Shown in pieces: positions 6,317 to 8,780 of a stretch of 13,164 nt of DNA. Both the position numbers and the translations under genes were made by a program. The DNA comes from Planctomicrobium sp. GTDB lineage: Bacteria > Planctomycetota > Planctomycetia > Planctomycetales > Planctomycetaceae. Under the pieces are notes generated by a model. That model did not search any database. It was given only the letters and a program-made list of their open reading frames with translations, and was not told the DNA's origin. Numbering within the stretch: position 1 is the first letter of the stretch; every line of letters starts with the position of its first letter. The stretch is from the NCBI GenBank assembly GCA_018659505.1, contig JABJMI010000336.1, positions 1 to 13,164 of the forward strand, given 5' to 3'.

Positions 6317-6967
6317 CTATTTCAACAAGTTCATCACAACAGGCATGATATCTGCCTGATAGGTAAACTCTGCGGGATTTTCCGGGTCTGGAAACTGTGC
6401 AGCCAACTCGCCAGATTGATCATAAACGTAGACAACGGGAATCGAACCTTGCGTCAGCTTTTCGTTATACATGGTGTCTGAATCGGTCGAGCAGAGAAGA
6501 TTTTGAAAGGTGGCCCCCTTCTCCTTCAACACAGCCAAAACTGGCTCTTTGTAGGACTCAACTGGCTGATCTTCAAATCCCTGATAATCGAGTGAGACCG
6601 AGATACATTCGACTTGATCACCATGCTCTTTGTGAATTTGCACGAGGTTTGGCAGTTCGACCAGACAAGGACCACAGTAAGTCGCCCAAAGATCGACGAT
6701 GACAATTTTGCCCTTTGAAGCTGCAATCAGAGCCTGCGTCTCTTCCCAGGATTTGATGTCGAGTGTTACTGGTGATGTTTCAGTAGACTCTGGTTCTTCT
6801 TCCTCCGTTTGACCTGAGGGGACAGGCTCCATTTCATCAGGAGACCCGAGTTCTACTGCATCACCTGCCTCAGGAACTTCAGGGTCTGGAGACGTCTCTT
6901 CCTGCTTAGAACAGCTTGTTACAAAAAGTGTTAACAAGCACATTAAGATCAATTGAGTTCGTTTCAT
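6317..6967 (-). CDS. Thioredoxin-like (TlpA/ResA-type) lipoprotein
   Basis: A 216-residue envelope protein. It begins with a lipoprotein signal (MKRTQLILMCLLTLFVTSC; lipid-carrying Cys at 19). An acidic Glu/Pro/Ser linker covers about 22-66, then a thioredoxin fold carries WATYCGPC (Cys98 and Cys101). The family uses such a CxxC to reduce or exchange disulfides in exported proteins, for example in cytochrome c maturation. GSIPVVYVYD near 175 supplies the cis-Pro loop typical of the fold. The start is the ATG at 6965-6967, which has AAGGAG seven bases upstream. An ATG seven codons earlier would bury that ribosome site in the coding sequence. The partner protein is unknown; no cytochrome maturation genes are nearby. 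Confidence 0.9.
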   Translation of the reverse strand: MKRTQLILMCLLTLFVTSCSKQEETSPDPEVPEAGDAVELGSPDEMEPVPSGQTEEEEPESTETSPVTLDIKSWEETQALIAASKGKIVIVDLWATYCGPCLVELPNLVQIHKEHGDQVECISVSLDYQGFEDQPVESYKEPVLAVLKEKGATFQNLLCSTDSDTMYNEKLTQGSIPVVYVYDQSGELAAQFPDPENPAEFTYQADIMPVVMNLLK

Positions 6968-7034
6968 ATTGGCTCTCCTTGGAGTCATTCAAGTATGACT
7001 TTGCATCTCACGCTTTGCGAAAAGCAGAGTCTTT

Positions 7035-7167
7035 TTAGACAGGATGAACATGATCTACAGGATAAGAAAAGATGTTGTGACGAGACATTAATAGGATTAT
7101 ATCCGAGAGACCGAAATCGCTTTTAATTTATCCTGTCAATCATGTTCATCCTGTCTAGTTTTCTTTT
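7035..7167. repeat. Repeat copy 1 (downstream of the GxxExxY gene)
   Basis: About 133 bp, roughly 90% identical and in the same orientation as 7556-7690. Its ends are inverted copies of one motif: AGACAGGATGAACATGAT at 7038-7055 and its reverse complement at 7139-7156, each followed inward by an imperfect CAGGATA/TATCCTG match. The whole element could therefore fold into a long hairpin. A central core, CGAGAGACCGAAATCGC, is unchanged in both copies. The last three codons and the stop of the GxxExxY gene lie inside this copy. Confidence 0.9.
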
Positions 7168-7532
7168 AGATACTCCCTGTATTTCCGCCTGACTTCAACC
7201 TTGTCGGGACCGAAATTGATTACTAATCCCAAGTCGATTTTAGTAGCCACGAGGTAATTCACTAACTGAACCTCGTGTGCAACTGCAATTTGGGAGACAG
7301 ATTTCAATTCCACGATTAAACGATCTTCCACAAGTATATCACAAGAAAAATCTCCAACATTAGAGCTATCGTAATAGACTTGAATTGAAGCTTGAGTTTG
7401 GTGTCGGATGCCGAGTTTGGATAATTCAATACTCAGCGACTTCTCATAAACGGATTCGAGAAACCCATATCCAAGAGTATTATGAACTCGAAATGCACAT
7501 CCAATCACTTGCTCTGTCAGTTGGTCATTCAT
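7155..7532 (-). CDS. GxxExxY protein (PD-(D/E)XK nuclease-like fold)
   Basis: 125 residues, the usual length for the GxxExxY family (Pfam PDDEXK_3). The name-giving motif GFLESVY is at 23-29. The nuclease-type signature is readable: Asp65 in DILVED, and Glu75-x-Lys77 in VELKS, with VQLVNYL (88-94) and GLVINFG (102-108) completing the conserved core. No cellular role is established for the family. The fold suggests nucleic-acid binding or cleavage, but that is inference. The start is the ATG at 7530-7532 without a convincing ribosome site. It lies between leuB and the thioredoxin-like gene and is bracketed by two ~134-bp direct repeats. The 3' copy provides its final Lys-Glu-Asn and stop, which suggests gene and repeats have been inherited as a unit. 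Confidence 0.92.
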   Translation of the reverse strand: MNDQLTEQVIGCAFRVHNTLGYGFLESVYEKSLSIELSKLGIRHQTQASIQVYYDSSNVGDFSCDILVEDRLIVELKSVSQIAVAHEVQLVNYLVATKIDLGLVINFGPDKVEVRRKYREYLKEN

Positions 7533-7555
7533 AGCTATAATTGTTGGAGAAAAAA

Positions 7556-7690
7556 TTTAGACAGGATGAACATGATCTACAGGATAAAAAAAGATATTGC
7601 GACGAGAGCTTATCAGGATATTATTCGAGAGACCGAAATCGCTTTTTAATTTATCATGTCAATCATGTTCATCCTGTCTAGTTTTCTTTT
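7556..7690. repeat. Repeat copy 2 (upstream of the GxxExxY gene)
   Basis: About 135 bp, a direct repeat of 7035-7167. The 18-bp motif occurs at 7559-7576 and inverted at 7662-7679. Most differences from copy 1 fall in a short variable stretch near 7607-7626; both ends are almost unchanged. It fills the space between the leuB stop (7701) and the GxxExxY start (7532), ending 23 bp before the latter, so it forms most of that gene's upstream region. Confidence 0.9.
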
Positions 7691-7700
7691 CCTCCGCAAA

Positions 7701-8780
7701 CTACCTCGAAAGTTCAGCGAGGACTTTCTCACCCATCTCGATAGTTCCTAATGCGACCTCGTTTTCTTTAGCGAGGTCTTTCGTACGATGTCCGGCTGCG
7801 AGGACAGCGTCGACAGCTTTCTCGATGGCAACGGCTTCTTCTTCCATTGAGAGGGAATGCCGCAATAACATGGCGGCTGCCAGGATTGTTGCTAACGGAT
7901 TTGCAATTCCTAAGCCAGCGATGTCAGGTGCAGATCCGTGAATCGGTTCGTACAAACCAGGACCGTCGCTGCCAATTGATGCGGAAGGCAAAAGCCCCAT
8001 TGATCCGGGAAGCATGGAACCTTCGTCTGTGAGGATATCTCCAAACATATTTCCGGTCACTACGACATCAAAAGTTGATGGTCGAGAGATCAAGTGCATC
8101 GCCATCGCATCGACTAAGACGACATCATATTTCAAGTCTGGAAACTCTTCTTTGACGACCCGTTCTGCCACTTTACGCCATAACCGAGAGGCTTCCAGAA
8201 CATTCGCTTTGTCGACAGAAGTTAGATGTCCACCGCGACCTTGAGCCGCCTTCGCTGCGATGCGGACAACACGTTCCACTTCGTGAGTGCTATAGACCAT
8301 CGTACTGGTGGCAGTTTCTGAGCCATCCTCATTTTGTTCGATCTTTGATTCACCGAAGTAAATGCCTCCGGTCAATTCTCGAATGAAAAGAATGTCAGTT
8401 CCTTCCACGATTTCACGTCGTAATGGAGATGAATCGAGAAGAAACTCGTGAGTTGTAATCGGTCGAAGATTCGCGAAGAGCCCGAGTTCTTTACGGATCT
8501 TAAGGAGACCTGCTTCTGGTCGTGTCTTGGCAGTGGGATCATCCCACTTAGGACCACCGACTGCACCGAGGAGAATTCCATCCGATTTGCGGCAGGCTTC
8601 CAATGTTGCCTCAGGAAGCGGGTCACCGAAGTCATCAATCGCATTGCCACCGATGGGGTGAGTTTCAAAGCTGAATTCGTGTCCGAATTTCTGACCAACA
8701 GCGGCAAGAACTTTTCGACCTTCTTCGGTCACTTCCGGTCCAATTCCATCTCCCGGCAGGAGAACAATCTTTGCATTCAC
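7701..8780 (-). CDS. leuB: 3-isopropylmalate dehydrogenase
   Basis: A 359-residue cytoplasmic enzyme of leucine biosynthesis. It oxidises 3-isopropylmalate with NAD+ to the 2-oxo acid that decarboxylates to 2-oxoisocaproate. The length matches bacterial LeuB (about 360). Markers in order: [11 protein letters not shown] (7-17), [10 protein letters not shown] (71-80), [12 protein letters not shown] (96-107) with substrate Arg residues, [11 protein letters not shown] (133-143) with Arg134 and Tyr141, VDKANVLE (189-196) with Lys191, and the family signature [19 protein letters not shown] (244-262) with Asp248 and Asp252 for the metal. GSAPDIAG (282-289) is the cofactor-binding loop. The start is a GTG (8778-8780) behind a weak AAGG; no ATG fits better. 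Other leu genes are not in the window, so the pathway is dispersed or lies elsewhere. Confidence 0.97.

Follow-up and report, generated by a model that had tools for sequence, protein, structure and literature searches.

A small gene of the GxxExxY family, lying between leuB and a lipoprotein gene in Planctomicrobium sp. and flanked by palindromic repeats, raises the question of whether gene and palindromes belong together, as an initial annotation of the sequence had proposed, and what such a pair might do. The window analysed here is an entire contig of 13,164 nt from an incomplete assembly (951 contigs, 75% complete), with the following features.

6317–6988, minus strand: TlpA/thioredoxin-like gene with a lipoprotein-type start, one flank of the junction
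6989–7700: leuB-tlpA intergenic interval, 712 bp
7034–7168: hairpin downstream of the GxxExxY gene, three ACAGGAT-type words per arm, loop of about 62 nt
7038–7063, plus strand: three-word arm (GACAGGAT, AACATGAT, ACAGGAT)
7130–7155, minus strand: three-word arm, inverted
7155–7532, minus strand: GxxExxY/PDDEXK_3 gene, 125 aa, with Pfam and NCBIfam matches
7556–7690: hairpin upstream of the GxxExxY gene, a direct repeat of the downstream hairpin, loop of about 63 nt
7560–7585, plus strand: three-word arm
7653–7678, minus strand: three-word arm, inverted, third word ACATGAT
7701–8780, minus strand: leuB (TIGR00169 match), the other flank of the junction

The two hairpins are 135 bp each and 90% identical (123 of 136 aligned columns shared), and are seen as two direct repeats, 7034–7129 with 7556–7651 (88% over 96 nt) and 7121–7167 with 7644–7690 (98% over 47 nt). 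The arms are inverted within each copy, 7036–7065 and 7128–7157 being 93% complementary over 30 nt, and both hairpins fold much better than shuffled sequence (z = −7.80 and −7.62, with none of 200 shuffles equally good). The stop codon of the gene (TAG, 7157–7155) and the K-E-N codons before it lie inside the downstream copy. The layout first described, in which a GxxExxY gene sits between two directly repeated palindromes, its last three residues and stop encoded by one of them, and the whole block lies between leuB and a lipoprotein gene, is therefore confirmed in each part. An Rfam search returned only miRNA families far under their gathering scores, i.e., matches of a generic hairpin kind.

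The protein matches TIGR04256 (GxxExxY) with 139.2 bits (cut-off 35, E = 7e-41) and PF13366 with 135.5 bits (cut-off 22, E = 1.4e-39). It carries G21, G23, E26, Y29, D65, E75, K77, Q89 and Y93, in columns that are invariant or nearly so among 46 sequences (D65, E75 and K77 invariant). The closest folds to its AlphaFold2 model (pLDDT 94.6) are those of Cas4, RecB, lambda exonuclease, MGME1 and restriction endonucleases, all distant (Foldseek TM about 0.5–0.6), and tRNA splicing endonucleases appear lower in the list. The model thus predicts a Cas4/RecB-like PD-(D/E)XK nuclease fold with the catalytic D and ExK, and a putative nuclease activity. The likeness to Cas4, RecB, lambda exonuclease and MGME1 lies in the fold and in the conserved E, D, ExK and QxxxY positions, a set that we take to resemble the Cas4/RecB motifs. 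Cas4 bears a four-cysteine cluster, for which the GxxExxY protein has no room, being only 125 aa long with two cysteines and a single domain in the Pfam scan. The PADLOC defence families gave weak Cas4 matches only (best E = 0.0033, 15.7 bits), and a sequence search of the PDB gave nothing significant (best E = 0.55). In the Pfam scan, no match to PF01797 (HUH Y1 transposases) was listed at E up to 1, and PF05635 (S23, four-helix) was not among the matches.

An empty leuB-lipoprotein junction was sought among relatives and found in four congeneric genomes (G001–G004). These keep the tlpA-leuB order and the next gene beyond tlpA, with 58–201 nt between the protein matches, and their junctions hold no GxxExxY match and no word run, against 712 bp with runs on both strands in the window. 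The intergenic DNA of the window matches theirs in short pieces at the leuB side only, leaving no nucleotide-alignable empty site for comparison, and inspection by eye of the window's ends showed no obvious target-site duplication. Within the genus, gene and arms are both absent from G001, G003 and G004 and both present in G002, and G005 (82% complete) has arms only.

A count over the source assembly gives 64 + 51 occurrences of the arm motif (at most two mismatches) and none of the pattern read backwards, which identifies a genome-wide repeat family rather than a chance palindrome; three-word arms number 61. The same assembly has four GxxExxY genes. Each was scored by the best inverted repeat between its 350-bp flanks, a score of 16 being the threshold for bracketing. 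The window's repeat is found at the window's gene only; L002 and L003 lie between inverted CACGAA-type arms (scores 22.5 and 14.0) and L004 between ACAGGAG/AGCAGAG-type arms (16.5). L003 falls short of the threshold, with a score close to the 99th percentile for slid windows. GxxExxY genes without the repeat had been named as evidence against a partnership: the other three do lack the repeat of the window, but have inverted repeats of other sequence, one of them weak. For L002, the neighbouring gene was not found beside its partner in the congeners. The L004 protein had no match among phage records and matches in 7 of 72,556 plasmid records. A Sphingomonas plasmid has a GxxExxY gene between fabD and fabG (L245, 2483–2911), with a word array upstream only and a downstream gap of 2 nt.

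Most copies of the repeat are gene-less. Such scattering had likewise been counted as adverse, yet the wider evidence given below still backs the partnership. None of 20 two-armed gene-less hairpins checked lies inside a spanning open frame of at least 150 codons. Decay from gene-bearing copies was considered as their origin and was not borne out, as no loop among 21 two-armed hairpins (19 plus the two of the window) matched the gene by tblastn at E = 0.01, a comparison of limited power in which many loops are short. Eight gene-less ACAGGAT hairpins (L018, L019, L023, L025, L032, L046, L047 and L058) share a homologous loop of 91–124 nt. By eye, hairpins of two word classes (ACAGGAT and CACGAA arms) are nested one in the other, or abut, at L017, L029, L016 and L021 of the source genome.

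Bracketing was then scored at 173 loci. A public genome scan supplied the best 80 of its 565 confirmed relatives (not a random sample) to a first set of 113, which was completed by the four genes above and 29 loci from genomes of relatives; the source genome and its relatives gave 102 GxxExxY matches including fragments, 93 loci of which were examined. Over all 173 loci, again including the best 80 of 565 relatives, 122 are bracketed and 51 score below 16. The first set, with its best 80 of 565, contributes 81 of 113, and a further 60 loci of relatives contribute 41, or 39 of 54 among full-length genes. The threshold was reached by 4.2% of 1500 cross-paired flanks and 0.6% of 1229 slid windows, slid and control windows being drawn from the same contigs as the loci, and by one of 30 PIN genes from relatives. 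Judging from their record titles, L148 (Thermoplasmata, score 19.0) and L170 (Methanoperedens, 12.5) come from archaea. The partnership of gene and palindrome is well supported as real, and extends far beyond the window.

The innermost word arms point towards the gene ('>gene<') in 71 of 167 loci and away from it ('<gene>') in 13, counts that include loci from the best 80 of 565 relatives, and 43 of the 167 have no word run under the strict heptamer pattern. The corresponding figures for control windows are 0 and 1 of 323. The hairpin-gene-hairpin layout of the window is of the '<gene>' kind and, far from being typical, belongs to a minority; a gene between two single arms is the common arrangement.

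An arm is an array of about three heptamer words placed 8–11 nt apart. Common words are CACAGAG and CACGGAG (CACRGAG), CGCAGAG, CGCCAAG, CACGGAT, CACGAAG and ACAGGAT. The mean arm autocorrelation peaks at 8–9 nt, and in 53 of 80 arms the value lies above the 95th percentile for shuffles of that arm. Within one locus, the left and right arms mismatch at 4.8% of word positions and 31.3% of spacer positions, and most of the word mismatches fall on the fourth letter, the degenerate one. The word patterns were derived from the same loci, so that the layout and left-right counts test arrangement and agreement and not word discovery. Words that agree while spacers pair poorly indicate that the sequence itself is kept, and not mere pairing. 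The conserved thing is thus the array of heptamer words, and not a 134-bp element or an 18-bp motif as originally envisaged. About 150–350 bp upstream of the gene of L101, the upstream arm is expanded in tandem (GATAGGAT, AACAGGAT and AACTGGA recurring), which looks as though arms can amplify in place.

The coupling of arm word and protein was examined in bracketed loci only, 79 with a score of at least 16 or 119 with at least 15, both sets including loci from the best 80 of 565. L082, L086, L094 and L149 were excluded from the protein work for want of a clean ORF, and six fragment loci and any with an internal stop were left out of the set of 119. Phylum labels were taken from record titles (15 labels among the 79 loci). 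Protein identity and arm similarity are correlated over the 79 loci (r = 0.339), and equally so when only pairs from different phyla are used (r = 0.337), values reached by none of 2000 permutations. Among the 78 pairs that span two phyla and share at least 60% protein identity, the arm score is 0.49, compared to 0.15 for the outer flanks and 0.20 for the inner spacers (32 pairs). For 43 of the 79 loci, the word class is shared with the closest protein of a different phylum (shuffled mean 14.6, maximum 31 in 500 shuffles).

On a protein tree of 119 rows, whose resolution is poor (58 of the 116 inner branches are open), 38 word changes are counted over the 103 classed rows, the 16 rows without a word class being outside the count; the minimum of 300 shuffles is 57. 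Outside the planctomycetes there are 17 word changes (shuffled minimum 23). Host phylum gives a weaker signal on the same tree, with 39 changes (minimum 44), or 29 (minimum 33) outside the planctomycetes. The arm word follows the protein tree more closely than it follows the host. All seven rows classed as ACAGGAT form one clade with moderate support (SH-aLRT 89), spread over five phyla, in which the protein of the window is joined by two from planctomycetes and by those of Desulfobacterales, Marinimicrobia, Bacteroidetes and Opitutia. L081, which is outside the tree, has ACAGGAT words but scores only 10.5; the protein closest to it is that of L098 (unbracketed, 7.5), followed by those of L097, L087, L076, L001 and L099. 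Another subclade (SH-aLRT 100) unites the proteins of L292, L296 and L297, whose CACAAAA/CGCAAAA-type words the patterns used here do not cover. In 16 genomes with at least two loci (51 loci), arm similarity to the nearest relative in another genome (0.258) exceeds that to paralogues within the genome (0.104; p = 6e-6); when the nearest relative is taken from another phylum, the same planctomycete comparison gives 0.157, a difference that is not significant (p = 0.15). Gene lineages thus tend to own different arm words, and the particular repeat of the window does not mark GxxExxY genes in general. That gene and palindrome behave as a unit is supported by the bracketing, the covariation of word and protein and the empty junction.

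The association also holds between genomes. The gene is patchily distributed, being present in 33 of 59 genomes. Arms were counted with two word patterns, for which the reversed control was zero in every genome, and number 1057 in the gene-bearing genomes (median 6) compared to 64 in the 26 others (median 0). At least two arms are found in 22 of 33 gene-bearing and 6 of 26 gene-less genomes (p = 0.0014); the remaining 11 gene-bearing genomes have one arm of the counted patterns at most. Arm number rises with the number of GxxExxY genes (rho = 0.64). Arms without a gene occur in G005 (17), G024 (26), G049 (9) and six more genomes (1–3 each). In the one-contig genome G047:C1 there are 84 ACAGGAT arms, and its two GxxExxY genes (L094 and L292) carry other words; the ACAGGAT arms are either an orphan family or have lost their gene.

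Two other gene families were sampled for comparison, like the PIN genes in relatives of the window's genome only, with one best locus per genome first. PF01797 genes (Y1 transposases, a family that includes the RAYTs) are present in 47 of 59 genomes, and strong inverted repeats, mostly GC-rich, were found at 21 of the 29 loci scored (one of 30 was too short); as RAYTs are a known case of bracketing, these loci serve as a positive control. S23 genes (PF05635) of planctomycetes (L065, 1501–1815, and L175–L203) are bracketed at 20 of 30 loci. Their arms have a period of 7 nt (autocorrelation 0.55 at 7 and 0.60 at 14), and three GxxExxY words are present in none of 20 S23 arms compared to 96 of 116 GxxExxY arms, so the S23 arms are apparently a second protein-arm family. 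The PF01797, S23 and GxxExxY proteins are unrelated, and each of the three families thus has an arm type of its own. In three genomes, a single contig (G031:C180, G002:C182 and G051:C207) bears both GxxExxY and S23 genes, no more than about 2 kb apart.

We consider the block in the window to be, rather probably, a selfish cassette made up of a small PD-(D/E)XK nuclease and the palindromic arms that it recognises. The best reading by analogy would be something REPtron-like, run by a nuclease unrelated to RAYT. Action of the nuclease on the arms is inferred, as is movement of the cassette, which is plausible. Several findings count against a selfish cassette. The gene copies within a genome are diverse, with no recent identical bursts, and neither a target-site duplication nor a gene remnant in the loops of gene-less hairpins came to light. 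Of the 173 loci, 51 are below the bracketing threshold, arms and gene do not always occur together (G005, G024, G049 and G047 among the exceptions), and the protein tree also bears a signal of host phylum. The arm contrast with paralogues loses significance for relatives from another phylum, the word spacing is awkward for simple double-strand binding, and the structural matches are distant.

An alternative, which appears unlikely, is that the element acts at the RNA level, the arms forming a hairpin in the transcript through which the GxxExxY mRNA is controlled or processed, with the nuclease acting on RNA or being autoregulated. It has a precedent in the intervening sequence (IVS) of Coxiella, where, according to PMC4990558, RNase III cuts a 28-bp inverted-repeat stem that encloses an S23 ORF, and it would suit both the arms around S23 genes and the presence of tRNA splicing endonucleases in the fold list. 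On the coding-strand RNA, G-U pairs slightly outnumber A-C (145 versus 114, p = 0.06), a preference that is not clear. Against this alternative, pairing alone would not predict the concentration of left-right mismatches in the spacers (31%, against 5% in words), and tens of copies are gene-less.

Slightly less probable again is a host-side role, in which the palindromes spread by other means and GxxExxY, as a controller or domesticated enzyme, trims, silences or removes them. This would accommodate the gene-less majority of arms, the arm-bearing genomes that have no gene, and gene copies that are diverse and not bursting. A controller need not sit between its targets, however, yet 122 of 173 genes do (including those from the best 80 of 565 relatives); arm numbers also climb with gene numbers, and the distribution of the gene is patchy. 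That the palindromes are REPs or TIRs mobilised by RAYT or TIRYT HUH transposases, among which GxxExxY merely landed, is very improbable: PF01797 is common, correlates by itself with arm count (rho = 0.38), and TIR-flanked transposases with repeat families are described for R. baltica and others in PMC3733652, but GxxExxY words occur on both sides of none and on one side of one of the 29 PF01797 loci, the arm count hardly tracks PF01797 once GxxExxY is given (partial 0.18, compared to 0.58 for GxxExxY with PF01797 held fixed and −0.01 for S23), and the coupling of word and protein across phyla would be left unexplained.

Among known systems, the selfish cassette proposed here works like REP/RAYT, as first suggested, without belonging to it, since the protein matches PF13366 and has no PF01797 match. 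REPs are short intergenic palindromes in tens to hundreds of copies with repeat-specific enzymes (PMC3733652, PMC3116915 and PMC8266576). As in REPtrons and REPINs, an enzyme gene is flanked by copies of a dispersed palindrome family with an uneven distribution. The enzymes differ, RAYT being an HUH tyrosine transposase and GxxExxY having a PD-(D/E)XK fold, and so does the layout of the repeats: REPs, which carry a GTAG or CGTC tag, are palindromes of 20–40 bp, whereas GxxExxY arms are heptamer arrays at 8–11 nt with poorly paired spacers. TIRtrons (TIRYT) also have a small enzyme gene between long TIRs, some with dispersed families, but the enzyme is a tyrosine transposase and the shared TIR motif reported in PMC3733652, GGGGWSAS, differs from the GxxExxY words. 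The S23-encoding IVS of 23S rRNA is similar in having a short ORF within an inverted-repeat stem; S23 is a four-helix bundle and the IVS lies in rRNA, unlike the cassette of the window between protein genes. The multicopy hepta- and octanucleotide repeats of Geobacter are dispersed intergenic word arrays, some palindromic, discussed mainly as putative regulatory sites or short RNAs, and no link to an enzyme is described for them in the accessible parts of PMC2700814 and PMC2996986; they are likened here by description and not by comparison of sequences.

In the proposed mechanism, the GxxExxY protein would read its heptamer word, binding the arms as an array, either on the ends of the element or on a displaced or folded strand. 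Recognition of a word array is favoured over that of a perfect hairpin because the words, and not the pairing, are conserved. A spacing of 8–11 nt is not helically phased, which is awkward for simple double-strand binding and leaves single-strand recognition open. The protein might then nick or trim at the arms, which could allow the cassette and the gene-less palindromes to spread via replication or repair.

A broader proposal, to which we give slightly less than even credence, is that GxxExxY and S23 represent, independently of each other, two families within a single class of selfish DNA that has gone unrecognised, one where inverted arrays of lineage-specific heptamers, with a family-specific period (8–11 nt or 7 nt), bracket the genes and litter the genomes. 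GxxExxY would extend over more than a dozen phyla and reach the archaea, word and protein co-evolving as lock and key. No prior link between repeats and GxxExxY or intergenic S23 genes was found in the portions of the literature open to searching, which excludes subscription papers, preprints and supplements, so a prior description is possible. The searchable text naming GxxExxY is not about repeats, no functional study of GxxExxY was found in the searched literature, and six sample arm strings were found there only in an unrelated fish paper.

No role has been established for either GxxExxY or S23, both of them small and widespread protein families; PMC4990558 describes S23 as having 'no known function'. 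The lineage-specific word rule makes function directly testable, as a candidate substrate can be read off the flanks of each gene. Should the pairing prove real, a second class of enzymes dedicated to bacterial palindromic repeats would stand beside the RAYT transposases, and the word-protein pairs found across phyla would be a ready-made collection with which to map how a minimal Cas4-like fold recognises sequence. If the lock-and-key proposal holds as well, these pairs would amount to a natural library of DNA or RNA recognition.
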